Virus record (IMG/VR): IMGVR_UViG_3300042402_001966
Span: 1 to 21,224 of that record
From: a virus
Reading direction: 5' to 3' (one strand)
Length of the DNA: 21,224 nucleotides
Shown here: positions 6,586 through 20,637 of the stretch, in pieces
Layout: every line of letters begins with the position of its first letter
Position numbering within the stretch: the stretch's first letter is position 1
The notes under the pieces: generated by a model
The model's input: the letters and a program-made list of their open reading frames with translations, nothing else
Told to the model about the DNA's origin: nothing
The model's database searches: none
Position numbers and translations under genes: made by a program

Positions 6586-7701
6586 TTAATCAGCTCTAAA
6601 TGGAGTCCAGCGGTCTCTGGGCACTAGTTTTACGGAGTCCCGGCCTTTGACATAGCCTTCCCCACCGGGTTTTCCACCAGTGTTTGCAGTAATATCTCCT
6701 TCGGCAGCATCTAGCTCACGAATTACTTCGTCTTTGGCTTTCATCAGCTCAACTACTAGAGAAAACATGGCATCCATGGTTCCGGGATAGGTAGTGTTTA
6801 ATCCTGCAATTTTCTGCTGTTGTCCTGCACTGACCTTGCTTGTAGGCAACCATCCAAAGAATGCCTTAGAGTTTATGTTATCCAGTGCTTTAGCCTTGCT
6901 TTGATTATTGACAAATGTGTAGATAATATTCTGTAAGCCGCTGAGTCCTGGGATTGGACTCAGTAGTTTGTCTATGTTGGCAGCATGTTGATTGGCTAGT
7001 TTCTCAATGACTTTTAAGTTGTCTGCATTGACTGCGGGCTTAGAGTTGACATAGGTCTGCCCAAATACAGCCAGCTCTGGGTTGGCTGCAAATGTCTCAG
7101 GACTTTCAAACGGCTCACCACTCTTGTCACCAAAGTAACCATAGACCTGATGCGCTGCCACAGCAATTTTAGCCTTGGCTAATTTACGGCCGACTTCGCT
7201 GGATACCTTAACAGAGTATGTGGTTTGATTAGGTGTAAAAGATATTCTACCATCGGCGCCCTGATAAGGTTTGCCTGGATGAAACAGTATGTCACCATAA
7301 ACATAACCTTTGAAGTCTGCAGGAGTTGCCTTTTCAAATATGGGCCATAGTGCTGCCATATCACTGGCAAATTTATCTCGCCATTCTTCGCCTTTGCCGC
7401 GACTCAGAATAAACTGTTTGAGATCTTCTGGACTAGAACTTTTGCCTTCTTCACGTCCCCAGTTGTTTTTGCCAACCATACGGAAAGTGCCATCTTCGTC
7501 ACGCCCCCAGTATACTGTAGGATTACCGTCCCATTTAATAGCAACATCGCTGCTATCTTGACTTAGTCCTTTGAGAACTTCTACAGCACGACGAGCACCG
7601 TTGGGCTCTGTGAACACTAGATCTTCTAGGTGATTAAACTCCCTGCCCACTTTCTTCGGCGCTGGAGTTTCAGCTTCGGTTAGTATTTCCCAGAATCTCA
7701 T
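6586..7701 (-). CDS. ligase-like nucleotidyltransferase (KxDG) family protein
   Basis: 371 aa from the ATG at 7699-7701, which overlaps the preceding stop (ATGA); an upstream in-frame ATG would add 10 residues inside the previous gene and is less likely. Motifs of the covalent nucleotidyltransferase (ATP-dependent DNA/RNA ligase, capping enzyme) superfamily are visible. AIKWDGNPTVYWG (54-66) has the K56-x-D-G of motif I. KGYVYGDILF (131-140) resembles motif III. GEGYVKG (347-353) resembles motif IV. SVKLVPRD (356-363) resembles motif V. The 200-residue stretch between III and IV is longer than in classical ligases. It resembles phage proteins filed under DUF6267, though I cannot confirm this. 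The N-terminus MRFWEILTEA contains an LTE|A site like T4 capsid-targeting peptides. It is third in an operon with a pol-beta-type nucleotidyltransferase. Confidence 0.72.
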   Translation of the reverse strand: MRFWEILTEAETPAPKKVGREFNHLEDLVFTEPNGARRAVEVLKGLSQDSSDVAIKWDGNPTVYWGRDEDGTFRMVGKNNWGREEGKSSSPEDLKQFILSRGKGEEWRDKFASDMAALWPIFEKATPADFKGYVYGDILFHPGKPYQGADGRISFTPNQTTYSVKVSSEVGRKLAKAKIAVAAHQVYGYFGDKSGEPFESPETFAANPELAVFGQTYVNSKPAVNADNLKVIEKLANQHAANIDKLLSPIPGLSGLQNIIYTFVNNQSKAKALDNINSKAFFGWLPTSKVSAGQQQKIAGLNTTYPGTMDAMFSLVVELMKAKDEVIRELDAAEGDITANTGGKPGGEGYVKGRDSVKLVPRDRWTPFRAD

Positions 7702-8513
7702 TTTACTATTTCTATGAGCTGGCGCATCCAACCTATACTTCCTGGTTGGTAGCTTTCTATTTGATTGGCCTTGGGCAACTCTATGCCCTGCTTGCCTAGT
7801 GTTTCTCTAGCCCCTGCAACTAATTCTTCATAGTTGGGCAGTTTTTTAATGTAGTTAAGGATGGCATCTACTGAACGGATGTCTTTGATGGTAGCAGTCT
7901 GTCCCAACAATTCTTTGGCGATTTGATTCCAATCATTGCCGTTAGGCAGCAGTTCATCTGTTTGTGGATTTAATATCCCGTGCTTGGGACTATACTTCAT
8001 GTTCTTGGCTCTGGCTATAGAACTCAATAGAATGTGACGATGTTCGCCACGATACTCTCCGCCACCGCTGATCATTGATCCTTGTTGAAACTTGGGGTTA
8101 GCGGAGAACATAAAGTCTGCTTGCACAAACCCGTTGGCTGGATCACCTTTGATAGGCACCTTCCAATGCACATTGTCACCGCTTAGTTTGATGTTCTCTT
8201 TGCCAAACTGTGATATCAACTTATCAGCAAAGGTTCTTTTATCTACTTCGTTAGCGTCCACGCTGAGGTCTAGATCGCCGGAACTGTTGCGCTCAAAGGT
8301 GCCATCTGGATCTTCTTTGCGTCCAGTGGTGCCTAACCATTTTACTGGCTTTTTATCGTCTAGATCTTTTTCTTTGGTAAAGTCTAGCCCTGTGATCTGT
8401 TCGATGTAGTCTACTGTGCTTTCTACATCTGCAGTGGCAATGCGCTGTGTCAGAGGTTGCTTGTCTGCACCTTTGAATACATTTCCACCTTCAAATAATT
8501 TACTCTGATTCAT
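7698..8513 (-). CDS. pol-beta-superfamily nucleotidyltransferase
   Basis: 271 aa. The catalytic signature is NSSGDLDLSVD (76-86), with Asp80 and Asp82 in the same setting as the SSGDxD motif of DNA polymerase beta. A third acidic residue is likely in FVQADFMFS (129-137, Asp133). The rest has no polymerase finger or thumb domain that I can see, so terminal NMP transfer to RNA, protein or a small molecule is more likely than templated synthesis. The start MNQSKLFEGG includes LFE|G, compatible with prohead-protease processing. The gene starts 14 nt before the end of the 92-aa gene and overlaps the ligase-like gene by 4 nt, so the two nucleotidyltransferases are made together from one late mRNA. 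Confidence 0.75.
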   Translation of the reverse strand: MNQSKLFEGGNVFKGADKQPLTQRIATADVESTVDYIEQITGLDFTKEKDLDDKKPVKWLGTTGRKEDPDGTFERNSSGDLDLSVDANEVDKRTFADKLISQFGKENIKLSGDNVHWKVPIKGDPANGFVQADFMFSANPKFQQGSMISGGGEYRGEHRHILLSSIARAKNMKYSPKHGILNPQTDELLPNGNDWNQIAKELLGQTATIKDIRSVDAILNYIKKLPNYEELVAGARETLGKQGIELPKANQIESYQPGSIGWMRQLIEIVK

Positions 8514-10200: not shown

Positions 10201-10228
10201 AAAGCAGCCTCCGGGCTGCTTTTTCTTT
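10201..10228. terminator. bidirectional intrinsic terminator
   Basis: Stem AAAGCAGCC - TCCG - GGCTGCTTT with T-rich sequence on the right and A-rich sequence on the left. It ends the plus-strand 90-aa gene and the minus-strand desaturase, which converge here. Confidence 0.85.
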
Positions 10229-10934
10229 ATGCGTTTCTAAGTTTTGCTAAGCCTGCATAGCTAAACAATTTAAACCACATCCATCCAATATCGAATTCAA
10301 ACCAACGACGGCTCAATTTAGGATTAGCAGGATCCAAGTGATGATTGTTGTGCAGTTCTTCCCCGCCAATTAATATGCCCCAAGGCATTACGTTATGACT
10401 GTGGTCTTTGGTTTCACCATTGCGATATCCCCACCAGTGGCCTACACCATTGATAAAGCCAGCGGCCCAGAATGGAATCCATATCATCTGAACACCCCAC
10501 ACTACAAATCCCCATGGCCCAAATAACAAGAGATCTATGATCAACATTAAGAGAATGCCAAGGCGATGGTGGGGTGTATATAGTTTGCGTTCGATCCAGT
10601 CTTTGGGAGTGCCGGCTCCGTATTTTATAACCATATGGGCATCACTGCCTGCGCGGTTATAAAATTTAACTCCGCCAAAGACCAATTGCCAAATACCGAA
10701 TATGTGAGGGCTGTGTGGATCGCCTTCTACATCAGTATTCTGATGATGCTTACGGTGAATAGCTACCCATTGCTTGGTAGTCATACCTGTGGTAAGCCAT
10801 AGCCAAAAGCGCATAAAGTGGCTCAATGCTGGGTGGAATTCAATGCCTCTATGTGCTTGGTTTCTATGTAGGTATAGGGTAACGCATACTATTGTAATAT
10901 GCGTCATTATTAGTGTTGCGATTATCATGTCCAT
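10227..10934 (-). CDS. membrane fatty-acid desaturase (acyl-CoA / acyl-lipid delta-9 type)
   Basis: 235 aa. All three histidine boxes that hold the di-iron centre are present: HRNQAH (23-28), HRKHH (60-64) and ELHNNHH (193-199), plus the conserved GHWWGYRN (165-172). Hydrophobic segments lie at 3-22, about 41-50, 125-139 and 143-163, as expected for a four-helix membrane desaturase. It would put a double bond into acyl chains using O2 and reduced electron carrier. At 235 residues it is shorter than most bacterial enzymes but similar to phage-borne copies, and appears complete. No Shine-Dalgarno precedes the first ATG. The AAGTAAATT just upstream is a weak late-type match whose predicted start would fall at the second ATG (residue 3). 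Its 5' end is divergent from the HAD gene. Confidence 0.88.
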   Translation of the reverse strand: MDMIIATLIMTHITIVCVTLYLHRNQAHRGIEFHPALSHFMRFWLWLTTGMTTKQWVAIHRKHHQNTDVEGDPHSPHIFGIWQLVFGGVKFYNRAGSDAHMVIKYGAGTPKDWIERKLYTPHHRLGILLMLIIDLLLFGPWGFVVWGVQMIWIPFWAAGFINGVGHWWGYRNGETKDHSHNVMPWGILIGGEELHNNHHLDPANPKLSRRWFEFDIGWMWFKLFSYAGLAKLRNA

Positions 10935-12200: not shown

Positions 12201-12296
12201 AGAAGACCATTCCCGGGCACGACTCCGATAATCCTCTGCCCAGCAGCCGGGCAACCCTGAAGTAACGCTAACGTTCCTAAGGTAGGGTGTTCTTCT
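12201..12296. ncRNA. candidate structured RNA with 23S-rRNA-like segment
   Basis: Read on the plus strand, AGAAGA (12201-12206) can pair with TCTTCT (12291-12296) to close the whole segment. Inside, GGGCA (12215-12219) can pair with TGCCC (12237-12241), or TGCCC with the second GGGCA (12249-12253), which are mutually exclusive. ACCCT (12254-12258) pairs with AGGGT (12284-12288) around a small AACG/CGTT hairpin (12264-12275). Bases 12262-12287 match 22 of 26 positions of the 23S rRNA helix 69 / I-CeuI target sequence as I remember it. No match to a known riboswitch was recognised. Strand and reality are uncertain. Confidence 0.35.
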
Positions 12297-13395
12297 ATTC
12301 CTCTCTGCGAATCCCAAGATCAGTTTGATCTATGTTAGGATGCCTTGCAACTATTTGTCTTAATGCATCCTGTTCATCAGTTGCCTGTATGCGAGCCTGC
12401 TTGCCGGTACTTCGTAATGTAACAATAAATGTTCCTGGGTCTTCTTGGGGTTCATCTTTCTTTTCCTCTTCGCCACTGTTATAACTCATAGGAAACTTGT
12501 TCTTTAGATCGCTGACAGCTTTGGCAGCATCATATCCGCCGCTGACAATCTCAGTGGAGTTCTTTTTGAGTTCGTCGGCGTTGGCTTGGATAGCATCTGC
12601 AATACGTTTCATTAGTCCTGGAAACAATTCAGCAAACTTTTCATCTTTACGAACAGTTTGATTACCGTTGTTGATTTGATTGGTAGGAGCATGCAGTTGC
12701 CACTTGCCGTTTACATCATCTGCATTCTGTTTGTCAAACACAGAGATGATAGGACCGTCATCTGCATAGCGATTGAACCATGTGGCACCCGAACTCGATC
12801 CTGTGCAGAAACTGGCGTTGAAGCCATGTGCATTGTTGAAGTTGTAGCAGGATCCGTAGTTGTAAGGAATAGTGACTAGGTAACGCTCATCATCGATCAG
12901 TGTGGTTTCTTTCTTTTCACGTTTGTGTTTTTCAATGACTTCAGCGTCTTTGATTTTATTAAGCTCGTTGCGATAGTCTCTGTTCTGAATGATAGCCTGT
13001 ATTTGGCGCAGGTTCTTGAACTTGTTGAAGTCTTGATGTGGCTCTTGCAGTTTGCCGCGGACGCTTAGAGCTTTCCAGGCACCCAGTGCATCACCGCCCT
13101 CACCGTTGATGTCCTCGTAATCAGCAACACCGTTGATGTACATGCGAGTTAGCCACTCATCAAACTTGCCGTCTTGACTGATATCACCATAGTCCGTGGT
13201 CTGTAATGATGCGTCTAGCAACTCACTCCACAACTTTAAAATTTCATCGTCTGAGGGTCTAGGTCCTAGTTTGGCCACCTTGGCCTTGGGCAGTGTGCCA
13301 TCGTGACGCATGGCAATGCTTAACATCTTAATAGTTTTGGGATCTTTTAATTTAGCTGCTACGTTGGCTTCTAGTACAATTTGATTTAGTTTCAT
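12295..13395 (-). CDS. phage protein of unknown function with a C-T/GP-type domain
   Basis: 366 aa. Residues about 170-260 contain RYLVTIPYNYGSCYNF ... NASFCTGSS ... GPIISVFDKQ ... GKWQLHAPTNQINNG. This is a variant of a widespread phage domain that usually reads (W)CT ... FxxY ... GPLYVIxxK ... KYQLQ; its function is unknown. Flanking regions are charged and helical, with a low-complexity acidic linker near 315-325 (EEEKKDEPQEDP) and a small C-terminal domain resembling a short beta-alpha fold (TFIVTLRSTGKQARIQATDE). It begins MKLNQIVLEA, similar to capsid-targeting starts. It is coupled by ATGA overlap to the 295-aa gene upstream, so they form one late transcription unit. Confidence 0.65.
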   Translation of the reverse strand: MKLNQIVLEANVAAKLKDPKTIKMLSIAMRHDGTLPKAKVAKLGPRPSDDEILKLWSELLDASLQTTDYGDISQDGKFDEWLTRMYINGVADYEDINGEGGDALGAWKALSVRGKLQEPHQDFNKFKNLRQIQAIIQNRDYRNELNKIKDAEVIEKHKREKKETTLIDDERYLVTIPYNYGSCYNFNNAHGFNASFCTGSSSGATWFNRYADDGPIISVFDKQNADDVNGKWQLHAPTNQINNGNQTVRKDEKFAELFPGLMKRIADAIQANADELKKNSTEIVSGGYDAAKAVSDLKNKFPMSYNSGEEEKKDEPQEDPGTFIVTLRSTGKQARIQATDEQDALRQIVARHPNIDQTDLGIRREE

Positions 13396-14279
13396 CCTGA
13401 TATCAAGCTCCTCTTAAAGAAAGAGAGAACTGTTCCTAGTTTCTTTTGATCGCCGCCTGCAATGTCTTTTAACAACTGTGCTGGTCCTTCGTTGAACTGT
13501 GCTGAAACGCCGGCAGATGAGCCGTATCGGCTGCGATTAAGATCGCCCGTAGTCTCTGGATAGTAATGGCTGGCTGTCATCAACACTGCTGAGTTGATAG
13601 CAGAACTAAGGAAGCCAGGAGTATCTGCATTACCAGCTTCCAGTTGTTCTAGACCGTTTTGTAGTGTTTCAATATAATTCAGTTTACGTTTGGCTTTTTC
13701 GAACGCATCATTCTTGATCATGTTGGCAATATGTCCTTTGATGTCTGCTATACTTGCTGTGATAGCACGAGACCATAAGGGTTTGAATTTTGCCACCAAG
13801 GTTGACTGGGTGACTTCTGTACCACCGGCGCCTTTTTGGGAATCACGACGTTTCTTTTGCTTGTCACTGACAGCAGTGGTATTGGGTGCCACATAGAACT
13901 TGTTTAGTTTGCCGATCTCACCTTTGAGGAAGTCGATGATGTTGCCGCCGCGACCATCAGACACTGAACGAGTTTCGCCGCCTGTGCTGGCCACTGCTTC
14001 GTAGCTGCCTGTGCTGCCGCCTCTGGCTCGTATAGCACCTGTGCCTTTGGTTCCTTGTATGATCACCCAAGCGCCTCGATAGCTGTCTTTGAGTTCACTC
14101 CATGAAATTTTATCTACAGGGCGATATCCAATATCGTGTGCCAAGCTCATGTCTTTGTGCAGTTTTTGCACTACTTCTTTGCCGCCTGGATTATTGGCGA
14201 TCAAGCTCATAGTAGTGCTGGCTTCGTTTACATAGCCTTCCAGCAATTGAGCAAAAATTTGATAAGATTCTATACGCAT
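13392..14279 (-). CDS. phage protein of unknown function, virion-type N-terminus
   Basis: 295 aa from the ATG at 14277-14279 (MRIESYQIFAQLLEGYVNEA). A longer frame upstream exists but would run through the promoter and into the thermonuclease gene. The start contains LLE|G, which fits a T4-type prohead-protease cleavage site. Middle: WVIIQGTKGTGAIRARGGSTGS, a Gly-rich beta region. Second half: long basic helices (FEKAKRKLNYIETLQNGLEQ), ending LGTVLSFFKRSLISG. No enzyme motif recognised. There is no Shine-Dalgarno; the late motif AATAAATA ends 5 nt before the ATG, predicting a leaderless mRNA. Its stop overlaps the start of the 366-aa gene. Confidence 0.65.
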   Translation of the reverse strand: MRIESYQIFAQLLEGYVNEASTTMSLIANNPGGKEVVQKLHKDMSLAHDIGYRPVDKISWSELKDSYRGAWVIIQGTKGTGAIRARGGSTGSYEAVASTGGETRSVSDGRGGNIIDFLKGEIGKLNKFYVAPNTTAVSDKQKKRRDSQKGAGGTEVTQSTLVAKFKPLWSRAITASIADIKGHIANMIKNDAFEKAKRKLNYIETLQNGLEQLEAGNADTPGFLSSAINSAVLMTASHYYPETTGDLNRSRYGSSAGVSAQFNEGPAQLLKDIAGGDQKKLGTVLSFFKRSLISG

Positions 14280-14282
14280 GAT

Positions 14283-14291
14283 ATATTTATT
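14283..14291 (-). promoter_or_regulatory. late-type promoter AATAAATAT for a leaderless mRNA
   Basis: AATAAATATATC immediately precedes the ATG of the 295-aa gene and overlaps the stop of the thermonuclease gene. The AAATATATCATG junction is the same as in front of the HNH gene (20113-20124). Confidence 0.55.
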
Positions 14292-14727
14292 GGCACCAGC
14301 TTTGTTTGGCTTCACCGTAGTATTCACGGGCTAAGCCGTTGGTAATAAGCCCTTGACGAATGCTCTGACCGTTTACCAAGATGTCTCCCAGTATACGGCC
14401 ACCAAACTTATCCCATCCATAGATAATAACCTGGTGCTTTGGGTGGGATTGTAGGGCTTGAGTTGTAAATTTACTCGCCAGTTGCGCTCGCTGGTCTTCT
14501 TGTGGACATTGAGCTCTGTGTCCTTTTTCTGGCGTGTCAACTCCGTAGATTCTAACAGCAAGTTCTGGTTTGAGCGGTGCTGGTAAAAAGGGGGCGGCGA
14601 TTACAATAGTATCGCCATCACTCACTCTAATAACTTGTGCATCATATGTTGCTGAATTTTTAGGCATCTTGCCCTGTGCAAATGCTAATGCAGGTGTAAT
14701 CAGCAATAATAGTAGTAGTTTTTTCAT
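14287..14727 (-). CDS. secreted thermonuclease (SNase family)
   Basis: 146 aa. A clear Sec signal peptide (MKKLLLLLLITPALAFA, probable cleavage after residue 17) is followed by the SNase fold. It shows VIRVSDGDTIVI (32-43), VRIYGVDTPEKG (58-69, with Arg59, Asp64 and Glu67 corresponding to R35, D40 and E43 of the staphylococcal enzyme), WDKFGGRILGDIL (105-117, Arg111 equivalent to R87) and GLAREYYG (131-138). All catalytic residues are kept. It would hydrolyse DNA or RNA in the periplasm or outside the cell, for example nucleotide scavenging, removal of competing DNA or aid to lysate release. AGGAT precedes the ATG, and an ATAAATAC late promoter sits 27 nt upstream. Confidence 0.9.
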   Translation of the reverse strand: MKKLLLLLLITPALAFAQGKMPKNSATYDAQVIRVSDGDTIVIAAPFLPAPLKPELAVRIYGVDTPEKGHRAQCPQEDQRAQLASKFTTQALQSHPKHQVIIYGWDKFGGRILGDILVNGQSIRQGLITNGLAREYYGEAKQSWCQ

Positions 14728-14761: not shown

Positions 14762-15397
14762 TTAAATCCAAGCAACCATTTTAAATCGCTCTTCAGGAAT
14801 GCCAAAGTATTTGCATTTCCAGCGACTCTGAGCAAAGAAGTCTAGGGGGTACCACTCGGCTTTCTTAGCTAGGATATTCTGCGCTGCGTCTTGCCAATCT
14901 ATAGCTAACAGCACAGGTTCTACAATCTCTTTTATATACTGAGTTTCTTCGTAGACAAAGCTGTCCCATTCCCAGTGCAGTACTTCAAATGCTCTGCCCT
15001 CACGGTCAGCATAGTCCATTGAGAAGTCTAAGCCCCATTTAGGACGAAGTGCTATAACCTTGTTGACCAACGGTAATGTCTTGGCCCAATACTGTAATTC
15101 ATCTAGAGCAGCACCTGTGTAGCCTTTGCGTTCAAACAGTAGACTGTGATTGAGATGTGAGCCTTCTGTGGTAGGCTGTTGTGTAAACCAATCTTGTTTT
15201 AGAGCTCTAAGATGTTCTCTGTGCTTCTTGGGTTTGACTTTGTTACCGTAGGCAAAGTGCTGTTCTAAGGGAGTAAGATCGTAGCCATTTTGATCAAATA
15301 GATCAAGGTCATCTATTGTGGGTTGGTACAGCAGTTTCTCTATAGGGTGATCCCAGTAGCCGTTTGAATCAAACTGGTTGCTGGTTAGTGCGATCAT
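14762..15397 (-). CDS. phage protein of unknown function
   Basis: 211 aa, rich in Trp, Tyr and acidic residues, with no family recognised. Notable stretches: YWDHPIEKLLYQPTIDDLDL near the start, KWGLDFSMDYADREGRAFEV in the middle, and the aromatic C-terminus WYPLDFFAQSRWKCKYFGIP. The LHWEWDSF region and conserved-looking acids could belong to a small enzyme, but I see no diagnostic motif. The ATG (15395-15397) lies within the 3' end of the Cys-rich mini-gene, a 29-nt overlap, so translation is probably coupled to it. It is followed at once by the thermonuclease promoter. Confidence 0.65.
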   Translation of the reverse strand: MIALTSNQFDSNGYWDHPIEKLLYQPTIDDLDLFDQNGYDLTPLEQHFAYGNKVKPKKHREHLRALKQDWFTQQPTTEGSHLNHSLLFERKGYTGAALDELQYWAKTLPLVNKVIALRPKWGLDFSMDYADREGRAFEVLHWEWDSFVYEETQYIKEIVEPVLLAIDWQDAAQNILAKKAEWYPLDFFAQSRWKCKYFGIPEERFKMVAWI

Positions 15398-15533
15398 TCT
15401 TATCTACACAATCTAAACATGAACATTCGTTGCAGTCGCATCCATCAGTCATACAGCTTGCACCACAATGTCCGGTACACCAACAGATGCATTTGGGTTT
15501 TAATCTTTGATATGAGGTGTCGTTGTCTTCCAA
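15369..15533 (-). CDS. 54-aa cysteine-rich, metallothionein-like mini-protein
   Basis: Reads from a TTG start (15531-15533): MEDNDTSYQRLKPKCICWCT, with ten Cys in 28 residues (15, 17, 19, 23, 27, 32, 34, 37, 39, 42) and His22. The CxCxC, CxxxC and CDCNECSC patterns are those of metal-binding mini-proteins. A strong AAGGAGC lies 6 nt before the TTG and overlaps the stop region of the upstream Fe-S-like gene, so the start is well supported. It follows that gene by 10 nt and overlaps the 211-aa gene by 29 nt. Function may be Zn/Cu/Fe binding or cluster assembly; unproved. A disulphide-rich fold is an alternative, but there is no signal peptide. Confidence 0.68.
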   Translation of the reverse strand: MEDNDTSYQRLKPKCICWCTGHCGASCMTDGCDCNECSCLDCVDKNDRTNQQPV

Positions 15534-15543
15534 GATTCGCTCC

Positions 15544-15948
15544 TTATTTTACTATCGGGCCGCCGGTGATCCAAAGTTCACAGCTACGGGTTCCTGCACA
15601 TTTGAAATGCAATAGATTACAGTAGCCTAGATCAGCAGCTTCACGAGTCTTTTCAGCTTCATAAGCCTCTTTGCCCATACCGTCGTGTATGCACTTGTAC
15701 ATACTGTCTGAAATGTTAAATGCCGCACAATTTGCACACTGCATGGTCTTAGCAGTCTTTTCATCTATGCCCCATTGCTTGGCTGAGTCTTTCCAATAGT
15801 CACCCGGCTCATCGGGATTGGCAGGACCGTAATGATATTCGTCTATGGCTTTTTGACGATTTTTTAGATTAGTATCAATGTTGTATGTAGCAATGGGACA
15901 GCCTTTATTTGCGGCTTCTACTATGTTGATATATTTTCTGTATGTCAT
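15544..15948 (-). CDS. Cys-motif protein resembling a high-potential iron-sulphur protein
   Basis: 134 aa. The C-terminal half has MQCANCAAFNISDSMYKC (69-86), then LGYCNLLHFKC (107-117) and SCELWITGGP (122-131): Cys71, 74, 86, 110, 117 and 123. The CANC...C...G(Y/W)C order is like that of HiPIP proteins, although the spacings differ (HiPIP has about 14 and 13 residues between the later cysteines). I associate this pattern with a conserved phage family. It may hold an Fe-S cluster or zinc. It overlaps the upstream virion gene by 4 nt (ATGA) and is directly followed by the Cys-rich mini-gene, so two Cys proteins are made in succession. No signal peptide. Confidence 0.65.
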   Translation of the reverse strand: MTYRKYINIVEAANKGCPIATYNIDTNLKNRQKAIDEYHYGPANPDEPGDYWKDSAKQWGIDEKTAKTMQCANCAAFNISDSMYKCIHDGMGKEAYEAEKTREAADLGYCNLLHFKCAGTRSCELWITGGPIVK

Positions 15949-16760
15949 AGATATGTATTACTGATTAAGTAACCCTCAATTTGTCCACCAACTGCTGTAT
16001 TGTTAGGTACACTTGCTTGCCACTGTATGTCAGTCTTTTCAGTGTAAGGTCGAGCAACAACTTTGAGAGAGTTATATTGGTCCAAGATAGGAAAGTTTAA
16101 TATAACATTAATTAGCCCATCTGGGCGCTGGGTAAAACTACGATAAGACGCAGGTTGACTGGAGTTAATGTACCAGTTGCTCTGCGTTAGATAAAATGTG
16201 TAGCCTGCTGGCACGGTGTAGACAGTCATCTGACTGCGGCCTGAACTGGGACCGGCAGCGACAGTGTTAATGTATGCCAGTGTGATTGCTTTGTCACTGC
16301 TGCCTGCATGTATCTGTCCCAGGTTGTTTGGGGCACGGGTAAGACTGATTGAGTTTATTCTCAAAAACAGTTTAGTGGTCAGCACACCAGTAGTACCATT
16401 GGTCAGCAATACTGTTTCAGTTTGAGATACATAGTCGGCATCTAATCCGTCAATACGCACACTGACATCGGCATCGGATGCCGACGCACTCCATACTCGA
16501 ACTACCTGTGCTAAGGCAAAATAAACATAGGCACCGCCTTCCCACGCTGGGAGAAATCCTGTACCCGAAGACAGTCTGTATCCACTAATGCTTAATCCTG
16601 AGACGCCTGGAACCTTACCTTGTGCCACTGCTAGATTAAAATCTAAATTGCGTAGACTAGGTTGTCCTCCAGCGTTGTATTCCATAGCCATGTGCAGATC
16701 GGAAGTGTTGGGTTCCGATGTATGCTGATAGTTGGTACTGTTGGGGTTTAGAATTGGCAT
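15945..16760 (-). CDS. probable virion structural protein (baseplate or tail)
   Basis: 271 aa, beta-rich with many Ser/Thr/Asn/Gly and aromatic residues, and no enzyme motif. The middle shows RINSISLTRAPNNLGQIHAG and a VYTVPAGYTFYLTQ segment, the latter typical of receptor-binding or baseplate proteins of T4-like phages, where a VPAG turn starts a jelly-roll strand. Its ATG follows directly on the TAA of the GLEYA-like protein with no gap, and its stop overlaps the next gene by 4 nt. Together with its upstream neighbour it looks like a pair of exposed tail proteins; exact position in the virion is unknown. Confidence 0.62.
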   Translation of the reverse strand: MPILNPNSTNYQHTSEPNTSDLHMAMEYNAGGQPSLRNLDFNLAVAQGKVPGVSGLSISGYRLSSGTGFLPAWEGGAYVYFALAQVVRVWSASASDADVSVRIDGLDADYVSQTETVLLTNGTTGVLTTKLFLRINSISLTRAPNNLGQIHAGSSDKAITLAYINTVAAGPSSGRSQMTVYTVPAGYTFYLTQSNWYINSSQPASYRSFTQRPDGLINVILNFPILDQYNSLKVVARPYTEKTDIQWQASVPNNTAVGGQIEGYLISNTYL

Positions 16761-17869: not shown

Positions 17870-19081
17870 ATGATAAACAAAGAACCCTTTAACACTCTAC
17901 TCAAAACACTCAAAGACACGGGCAAATACCGTGTGTTCAACGATATCATCCGTGAAAAGGGCAAGTTTCCTTCAGCCATGTGGTACGGGCCATACAACAT
18001 CAAGAGCATCACAAACTGGTGTAGCAATGACTACTTGGGCATGGGCCAGCACAAAGTTGTGTTGGATGCCATGCACACAGCCCTAGACCACACAGGTGCA
18101 GGGTCAGGCGGCACACGCAACATAGCAGGTACCAGCCACTATCACGTAGCATTGGAATACGAGCTGGCCACTCTACACAACAAGGCACGAGCTCTGCTGT
18201 TCTCATCAGCCTATGTAGCCAACGAATGGACTCTGATTGCTCTAAGCAAGATCATACCCAACATACATTTTGTTTCGGACAGTGAGAACCACAACAGTCT
18301 AGTCATCGGTATGGTTCACAGCCGAGCACCTAAAACTGTGTTTCGTCACAACGATCTCAATCACCTAGAAGATATATTAACAAGCATACAACTCACAGGC
18401 AATGTGCCTTGTATTGTATTCGAATCAGTTTACTCAATGGATGGCGATGTTGGACACATCAAAGAGATCTGCGACCTAGCAGATAAGTATGGTGCTATAA
18501 CATATATCGATGAAGTTCATGCGGTAGGACTCTATGGACCCCACGGTGGTGGGAAAGTTGAAGAGCTAGGGCTACAATCCCGTGTTGACATAGTCAACGG
18601 TACATTAGGGAAAGCCTATGGAGTCCAAGGTGGCTATATAGCTGCCGATGCAGAGGTCATTGACGCCATCCGTTCTGTAGCTGCTGGATTTATCTTTACC
18701 ACAAGTATGAGCCCTGTGAGCTGTGCAGGTGCATTAGCTGCGGTCAAGTATCTAAAGGATCATCAAGAGCTGAGAGACAAGCATCAAGAACGAGCTCGTA
18801 AACTCAAACATAGATTGGCTGTGGCTGGCATGCCTGCAATGGAATGCACCAGCACACACATTGTTCCTATCCTAGTTGGGGAAGCTATGCGTTGCAAGGC
18901 CATCAGCGATGAACTGCTCAACGAACACAACATCTATATTCAACCCATCAACTCGCCTACTGTGGCTGTGGGCACGGAGCGGTTGCGTCTAGCACCTACT
19001 CCGTTCCACGATGATGGTATGATTGAAGATCTAATTACTGCTCTGACTGCTTCGTTTGCGTGTCACCCGGCGCAAGTCTAA
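17870..19081 (+). CDS. hemA: 5-aminolevulinate synthase (ALAS)
   Basis: 403 aa, full length for the family (about 400). It condenses glycine and succinyl-CoA to 5-aminolevulinate, the first step of the C4 haem pathway, with pyridoxal phosphate. Visible motifs: [11 protein letters not shown] (50-60), [15 protein letters not shown] (78-92), SENHNSL (138-144, His141 stacking on PLP), [12 protein letters not shown] (212-223, Asp214 and His217), [13 protein letters not shown] (244-256, Schiff-base Lys248), FTTSMSP (276-282) and [20 protein letters not shown] (357-376). The GTRNIAG and ERLRxxPTP features favour ALAS over KBL or BioF. No Shine-Dalgarno; the late motif ends 6 nt before the ATG. The last 47 bp overlap the cupin gene tail to tail. 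Nothing suggests decay, so it is probably active. Confidence 0.95.
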
Positions 19082-19418
19082 ATCGATCTTCAACGTAGTC
19101 TGGAGAGCCAACTTCAAAGATCACACTGTTGGCGACCAAGGCTTCGATTTGATGCGGACCAAGAGCTCCGAAGTCTGCAGTTTTGCCTTCTTCTAGGATG
19201 GCTTCCTTGGCTTCACCTGTGCTAACATCAATGTAGGTTACTTTGAATCTACCAGCATTGATGAACCAACTCTTGTATTTTTCTTTGTGAAACACTAAAC
19301 TGGTTTTGGCTCCTGCACGTTCGAATACCAGGAGTTTTCCGCAGTATTTGTCGTTGTTGGCCCATACCAATTCAAATCCCCACCCTTTGTCTATTTTACC
19401 TAATGTTTGTAAGTTCAT
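19035..19418 (-). CDS. cupin-fold protein (mannose-6-phosphate isomerase type II-like)
   Basis: 127 aa. A single cupin barrel: [17 protein letters not shown] (7-23), [20 protein letters not shown] (27-46, with His44 as possible metal ligand), [13 protein letters not shown] (68-80) and [13 protein letters not shown] (83-95, His89). The K-G-W-G-F-E opening parallels the KPWGxE start of sugar-phosphate cupins. A metal-dependent isomerase, epimerase or sugar-binding role is possible, but the usual H-x-H pair is reduced, so enzymatic activity is uncertain. The ATG overlaps the clpP stop by 4 nt, giving a clpP-cupin operon from a sigma70 promoter. The 3' end is antisense to the end of hemA. Confidence 0.75.
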
Positions 19419-20002
19419 GGTCGTTTCTCGATTATTTTATCTACTAGGCCATAGGCCAGTGCTTCTTCTGCTGACATGAAAGTGTCACGATCCATGTCAC
19501 GCTCGAAGTCTTGATAGGTCTTGCCTGCGGTATTGTGTTTGACATAAAGTTCAGTTAAGATGGTTTTCATCTTGGTGATCTCTTTGTATTGGATCTCAAT
19601 GTCGCTTTGCATGCCACGAGCACCGCCCGAGGGCTGATGGATCATGTGACGGGCATAGGGCAACATATAACGCTTGCCTGCTGCGCCTGCCTGTGCTAGG
19701 AATGAACCCATTGAACAGGCCTGCCCCATCACATAGGTAGCAACAGGACAACGAATAAACTGCATGGTATCATAGATACTCATGCCGGCAGTGATAACAC
19801 CACCTGGGCTGTTGATAAACATGCTGATTTCTTTGTCTGGGTTTTCGCTTTCCAAGAACAGCAATTGGGCTACAACTAGATTGGCCATGTGATCTTCTAC
19901 AGGACCATTCAACATGATAATACGCTCTTTGAGCAAACGACTAAAGATGTCGTAGGCCCGCTCACCTTTTGATGTAGATTCAACTACCATTGGTACTAAC
20001 AT
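19415..20002 (-). CDS. clpP: ATP-dependent Clp protease proteolytic subunit
   Basis: 195 aa from the ATG at 20000-20002, chosen because AAAGGA lies 6 nt upstream; a TTG 18 nt earlier would read through that site. The whole ClpP fold is present: [20 protein letters not shown] (3-22), [19 protein letters not shown] (62-80), [13 protein letters not shown] (91-103, Ser97), HMIHQPSGG (119-127, His122) and [20 protein letters not shown] (167-186, Asp171). The triad numbering equals mature E. coli ClpP. It resembles bacterial ClpP far more than phage S14 head proteases, so it is taken as a host-type protease subunit that would work with a host Clp ATPase. No ClpX/A partner is in the window. Confidence 0.94.
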
Positions 20003-20026
20003 AGAATTCCTTTTGTGCAAAATTAA

Positions 20027-20121: not shown

Positions 20122-20637
20122 ATGAGCACCCTTTTATTAAATGCAGACATGCAACCTGTAAGCCTTTTACCCTTGAGTGTAGTAGATTGGCAGGAAGCCA
20201 TACGATACATGGTTCTGGACAAGGTCAAGGTATTGGAATGGCATGACGATTGGATTGTCCACAGTGCCAGATGGCAGACTCGTGTGCCTGCTGTGATCAT
20301 GTTGAACACATATCAAAAGCCCAAACATACCATGCGGTTAAGTAAACGCAACATATTTCTGCGTGATGCCTACACCTGCCAATACTGTGGCACAACAGTC
20401 ACAGAAATCAATGCCACTTTGGATCATGTGCATCCTGTGAGTCTGGGCGGCAAGACCACCTGGGAAAACTCCACCACGGCCTGCAAGCACTGTAACTATC
20501 GCAAGGCAGCTCATGTGGGTAAAATGAAGCCACGGATCGCTCCCTATAAACCTACATTTTGGGATCTAGTTGCCAAACGCAGGGTCAGAGGATATCACAT
20601 GGCGCATCCTAGCTGGGCAGACTATTTGGGTGTTTAA
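20122..20637 (+). CDS. HNH endonuclease family protein
   Basis: 171 aa. N-terminal domain LLLNADMQPVSLLPLSVVDW (4-23) through VKVLEWHDDWIVHS, typical of the bacterial/phage HNH proteins that begin with LLNADxxPLS. Then the HNH zinc-finger nuclease: FLRDAYTCQYCG (79-90, Cys86 and Cys89), LDHVHPVSLGG (100-110, Asp101, His102, His104), TTWENSTTACKHCNYRKA (112-129, Asn116, Cys121, Cys124). All core residues are present. Such proteins may nick DNA during packaging or recombination, act as free-standing homing endonucleases, or restrict rival phages. No Shine-Dalgarno precedes the ATG. It is divergent from clpP. Confidence 0.85.
   Translation: MSTLLLNADMQPVSLLPLSVVDWQEAIRYMVLDKVKVLEWHDDWIVHSARWQTRVPAVIMLNTYQKPKHTMRLSKRNIFLRDAYTCQYCGTTVTEINATLDHVHPVSLGGKTTWENSTTACKHCNYRKAAHVGKMKPRIAPYKPTFWDLVAKRRVRGYHMAHPSWADYLGV

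Follow-up and report, generated by a model that had tools for sequence, protein, structure and literature searches.

Phage metal handling during infection is hardly known. The closest described systems are found in bacteria, where metallothioneins of similar size to the protein considered here bind 3–4 Zn and contain His as well as Cys (PMC10612145), and in T4, whose internal proteins carry a capsid-targeting sequence of approximately ten residues and whose gp21 protease removes N-terminal peptides (PMC9958956, PMC3012670). Phage 5-aminolevulinate (ALA) synthases have already been published in aquatic phages (PMC11480375). In the open-access literature, we found no paper on phage metallothionein-like proteins or on a phage HiPIP. 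Here we describe a gene for a Cys-rich mini-protein, carried on a stretch of viral DNA of 21,224 nt (the window). The gene, which standard annotation has missed, is genuine and is widespread among T4-like viruses that infect aquatic bacteria.

Organization of the locus

The mini-protein gene and the features adjoining it are as follows.

14762–15397, (−): downstream coupled gene, 211 aa, whose start overlaps the 3′ end of the mini-protein gene by 29 nt
15369–15533, (−): gene for the Cys-rich mini-protein of type A, which starts with TTG and encodes 54 aa; 54 distinct relatives
15534–15546, (−): junction of the CANC and mini-protein genes, where the CANC stop codon TAA overlaps a GGAG Shine-Dalgarno site (translational coupling)
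15544–15948, (−): gene for the CANC protein, 134 aa, 7 Cys, a predicted Cys metal protein with a capsid-targeting-like N-terminus
15945–16760, (−): structural/tail-fiber-like gene upstream, overlapping the CANC gene by 4 nt (ATGA; PHROG 8198, E 3e-17, unknown function)

The mini-protein has a mass of 6.0 kDa and consists of 18.5% Cys, with its ten Cys at residues 15, 17, 19, 23, 27, 32, 34, 37, 39 and 42. The resulting type A spacing, C-x-C-x-C-x2-H-C-x3-C-x4-C-x-C-x2-C-x-C-x2-C, comprises four CxC and two CxxC motifs, and the low mass (<10 kDa) combined with high Cys content is typical of metallothioneins. At the junction, which reads AAA-TAAGGAGCGAATC-TTG, the GGAG lies 6 nt 5′ of the mini-protein TTG, and the CANC stop codon sits within the TAAGGAGC stretch. 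The first-pass annotation of a 54-aa frame with 10 Cys, a TTG start and a site 6 nt upstream overlapping the end of the CANC gene was borne out. A GGAG-type site was found again at most type A junctions. The TTG start is supported by the relatives, which use ATG, TTG or GTG at the same position, with a purine-rich site upstream in most of them. The case illustrates how a gene can escape annotation when it is short and does not start with ATG.

A gene of the 211-aa type follows most mini-protein relatives, usually with an overlap of 23 nt; the 211-aa protein of the window had no match in Pfam. On the other side, the slot of the tail-fiber-like gene is occupied in relatives by collagen-like fiber genes. 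The suggestion that the pair is coupled to late virion genes therefore stands as far as coupling is concerned, given the gene overlaps on both sides and the tail-fiber-like surroundings. Its late timing is deduced from position alone, because the late promoter sequence TATAAATA was no more frequent than chance in the window and sigma-70-like sites also occurred there at near-chance frequency.

Conservation and distribution of the mini-protein family

Three stop-free frames of the window reach 10 Cys in 45 aa, so that Cys content alone is weak proof of a gene, and this is what could be said for a chance ORF or a sequencing artifact. Among viral contigs, 29 loci were recovered with the window protein as query and 80 with an alignment, the latter representing 54 distinct type A proteins. 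All ten Cys, His22, Ser26 and Met28 are invariant in every one of them; Tyr8, Gly24, Thr29 and Asp30 are almost invariant, and Trp18 is common. No frame is broken in the homologues, and the Cys positions, whose conservation had been set as a check on the gene, are kept. The median dN/dS was approximately 0.20 for the mini-protein versus 0.07 for the CANC gene, which points to purifying selection on the mini-protein. The intact frames of 54 relatives, the invariant Cys and this dN/dS lead us to conclude that the gene is genuine; they already refute the chance explanation, to which we give practically no weight.

A sister type (B) was met downstream of CANC genes in other phages. It is 44–58 aa long and follows the type A layout, but has nine Cys and is richer in His. 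When viral contigs were searched for this type, 56 loci encoding 33 distinct proteins were recovered. In its core, C-x-H-C-x-H-x-A-H-C-G-H-S-C ... C-D-H-C-x-E-C-A-C-x2-C, the CxC of type A becomes CxHC while the layout is unchanged, as expected if these residues are metal ligands. The YxRLKPK segment is gone from most type B proteins. Intermediates occur, including two (L187 and L249) that combine a type A N-terminus (DDNDAYFRLK) with a type B core, and on these sequences the two types are most likely a single family.

A cellular origin of the mini-protein was considered and rejected. Neither type had a relative in approximately 85,000 prokaryote species genomes (GTDB) scanned with short peptide patterns, which could miss distant relatives; neither had a convincing relative among isolate phages, and a scan of plasmids found none of type A. 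Searches of Pfam, NCBIfam, PHROGs and the PDB returned nothing useful: no Pfam metallothionein family was matched up to E 5 by the 54 members scanned, a profile search of the PDB sequences gave no relevant match, and neither a zinc-finger family nor a known cluster-carrier family was matched. The mini-protein looks phage-specific and undescribed, and it had indeed been overlooked, as no family in Pfam, NCBIfam or PHROGs annotates it. Among the large contigs carrying the family or the CANC neighbor, a gp23-type capsid gene was present in 7/10 and a gp21-type prohead protease gene likewise in 7/10, from which we infer that the carrier phages are T4-like. These viral contigs are fragments, and the gene calls in relatives were mechanical; the window, a 21-kb fragment, is too short for gp21/gp23-type genes itself.

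Identity of the CANC protein

The CANC protein had been described as a HiPIP-like protein with six Cys. The count is seven, at residues 17, 71, 74, 86, 110, 117 and 123. Five of these (C71, C74, C110, C117 and C123) are kept without exception, also in distant relatives from podo- and myophages; C86, at the third-ligand position of HiPIP, is absent from L190 and L191, which are distant relatives. The HiPIP assignment was rejected on several grounds: none of 60 CANC relatives matched Pfam HIPIP (PF01355) up to E 1, hhalign of the CANC profile with four solved HiPIPs gave probabilities of 2–6%, and the four-Cys CxxC...C...GWC set, with its third ligand, is not conserved. GenBank records label CANC relatives as HiPIP, a label that may be explained by the sub-threshold match of L190 to PF01355 (E 0.06). 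From its sequence, we prefer to describe CANC as a predicted Cys metal protein of unspecified type.

The N-terminus of CANC in the window, MTYRKYINIVE|A, looks like a T4 capsid-targeting sequence. Glu11-Ala12 is invariant in 60/60 CANC relatives within a short [LI]-x-E|A context, as in MYRKYINIVE|A, MRQYINILE|A and MKTFKELLSE|A. These N-termini were read with the gp21 cleavage consensus, and the likeness is one of sequence. Targeting-like motifs were found at 4/30 protein N-termini of the window versus 0.63 expected from internal stretches, a count reached in 1/2000 resamplings, and at 11/123 N-termini of a wider protein set versus 2.2 expected; the mini-protein has no such motif. Packaging of CANC in the virus head is plausible. 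Several further proteins of the window have [LIV]xE|[AG] N-termini, encoded by genes at 6586–7731, 7698–8513, 12295–13395 and 13392–14327, all on the (−) strand, with the peptides RFWEILTE|A, NQSKLFE|G, LNQIVLE|A and FAQLLE|G, as though phages of this group packaged numerous internal proteins.

Linkage of the mini-protein and CANC genes

A CANC gene lies directly beside 42 of the 87 distinct mini-proteins, in both orders. Type A proteins are found directly behind it in 15/54 cases and directly before it in 6/54. For type B, 21/33 are directly behind the CANC gene, often with their ATG within its 3′ end, and 8 more are within 2.6 kb. Counted from the CANC side, a mini-protein adjoins 16 of 47 distinct CANC genes; the counts from either side cover nearest relatives only. 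Half of the mini-proteins have no adjoining CANC gene, and many of their records have none elsewhere, so that CANC could not be the sole client of the mini-protein. Large records, which may be incomplete, include both mini-proteins without a CANC gene and CANC genes without a mini-protein. The proposed partnership is therefore supported only in part: direct linkage recurs, but each gene also occurs without the other, the mini-protein often so, and the pair is a recurrent but optional association. Operon adjacency may reflect expression timing only.

Three loci (L064, L073 and L075) retain the first 8–12 CANC codons directly before an intact mini-protein gene, and the gene upstream of the remnant is the same as in an intact locus (L045). 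We read the remnant as a deletion scar, which makes CANC followed by the mini-protein the earlier order there, and some phages deleted the CANC gene yet retained the mini-protein. The remnant is essentially just the capsid-targeting-like peptide of CANC. Two other loci (L150 and L170) have an unrelated, zinc-ribbon-like protein with 6 Cys in this position immediately behind the CANC gene; it matches the double zinc ribbon and DUF6171 families weakly and PHROG 13558 with E 2e-10. The CANC protein tree suggested many changes of arrangement (24 by parsimony) and is poorly resolved; for the split between none and any, well-supported branches forced only 3 changes.

Heme pathway gene and other genes of the window

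Other genes of the window are the following.

10227–10934, (−): fatty acid desaturase of the DesA family (NF049918, 392 bits versus a cut-off of 400)
17870–19081, (+): 5-aminolevulinate synthase (TIGR01821, E 1e-169)
19415–20020, (−): ClpP-like protease, close to the ALA synthase gene
20122–20637, (+): HNH-type protein, probably an ordinary HNH endonuclease, which an IscB model matches weakly (E 2e-10, far below the cut-off)

A link between the mini-protein and the heme pathway gene had been raised as a possibility. An ALA synthase gene was found near CANC genes in 14/18 cases with the mini-protein and in 12/27 without it, and the link is not specific. The association is weak and is equally explained by phage lineage.

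Proposed function of the mini-protein

We propose that the mini-protein is a phage-specific metal-thiolate protein of T4-like aquatic phages that acts like a metallothionein. It would probably be expressed late, with the virion genes, and its ten thiolates, together with the single His, would enclose several d10 metal ions in one cluster, with approximately 3–4 Zn(II) as the likeliest content. In this form it would store metal or pass it on within the infected cell during virion production; its commonest client would be the neighboring CANC protein, which could be loaded with metal and then packed into the prohead. We estimate at roughly one in two the probability that the mini-protein buffers or donates metal as a metal-thiolate protein with CANC as a frequent client. 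Its components differ in strength: the mini-protein very probably binds metal, and the assignment of CANC as a client is tentative.

The metal-thiolate reading is favored by the metallothionein composition, by the CxC to CxHC swap and by the 3–4 Zn bound by similar-sized bacterial metallothioneins. The invariant ten Cys and His with CxC and CxxC spacing, the exchange of ligands in type B within a preserved layout, the purifying selection and the repeated linkage to CANC all speak for it, as do the deletion scar and the zinc-ribbon-like protein that occupies the same slot in two loci. Of the two roles first suggested for the mini-protein, the metallothionein-like one is the more natural, and that of a partner in iron-sulfur cluster delivery is improbable. 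Against the metal-thiolate reading stand the lack of a Pfam metallothionein match and a weak AlphaFold2 model (pLDDT 62), from which no cluster geometry can be read; a second model was also weak (pLDDT 46). In addition, the strongly conserved Tyr8 and His22 and the common Trp18 are less usual in animal metallothioneins and might fit better with a zinc adaptor that has a fold.

Such a zinc adaptor or regulator is the main rival, although we regard it as rather unlikely. Here the Cys and His would hold two or three structural Zn, while Tyr8, Arg10, Lys14 and Trp18, present in most type A proteins, would bind a protein or a nucleic acid of either the host or the phage, and metal storage would not be the point. 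The conservation in type A of residues that are not ligands (Ser26 and Met28 without exception, Tyr8, Gly24, Thr29 and Asp30 nearly so) fits this explanation, as does the independence of the mini-protein from the CANC gene in many phages. However, with 10 Cys in 28 residues and a CxCxC motif, the mini-protein is denser in Cys than ordinary zinc fingers; most type B proteins lack the YxRLKPK segment, and zinc-finger families are unmatched. Neither AlphaFold2 model is strong enough to choose between a metal-thiolate protein and a zinc adaptor.

The suggestion made in the first-pass annotation, that the mini-protein is an iron-sulfur cluster carrier or insertion factor for CANC, would account for the tight coupling and the repeated linkage with a Cys protein. 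We consider it improbable, because CANC failed every HiPIP test applied, so that nothing indicates an iron-sulfur cluster there; known cluster-carrier families are also unmatched, and most of the homologues that lack a CANC gene would have no client. Equally little probability attaches to an accessory role in the virion, in which the mini-protein would be a small metal-stabilized part or a chaperone of the adjacent, highly variable tail-fiber genes. The gene is often located at the 3′ end of a tail-fiber-like region (clusters c1, c8, c18 and c22), but the fiber genes vary while the mini-protein is constant, and distant relatives (L079, L098, L099 and L101) lie in other contexts.

In an extension of the metal-thiolate reading, a Cys metalloprotein would be packaged in the heads of T4-like aquatic phages and injected with their DNA, while a dedicated, metallothionein-like mini-protein would load it or protect its metal as virions assemble. 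We regard such a metal-delivery pair as doubtful. The targeting-like N-terminus of CANC raises the question of metalloprotein delivery by phages into their hosts, and the widespread, unannotated and phage-specific Cys-rich family offers a small, directly testable protein.

Comparison with known systems

The likeness of CANC to HiPIP is confined to the short motifs CxxC-A-x-F and G-x-C; CANC is longer, has the extra Cys117 and Cys123, does not conserve the third ligand and has a capsid-targeting-like N-terminus. Its targeting-like N-terminal peptide, ending in [LI]-x-E|A, resembles that of the T4 internal proteins IPI–IPIII, and it occurs in a phage group that has a gp21-type protease and a gp23-type capsid (PMC9958956). 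In contrast, the body of CANC has no detected relation to IPI–IPIII.

For the mini-protein, part of the animal metallothionein beta domain has the spacing of the type A end, CxCxxCxCxxC, which is a lead only; the mini-protein differs in its aromatic residues and its one invariant His, and no homology is detectable. The bacterial metallothioneins SmtA and PmtA have a CxCxxCxC-type spacing that can be likened to that of the mini-protein. Like it, they are small and Cys-rich, of similar size and with His as a likely ligand, and SmtA binds 4 Zn (PMC10612145). However, the order of Cys differs and there is no Pfam sequence match, and the mini-protein, unlike SmtA and PmtA, is found only in phages, in an operon with virion-region genes.
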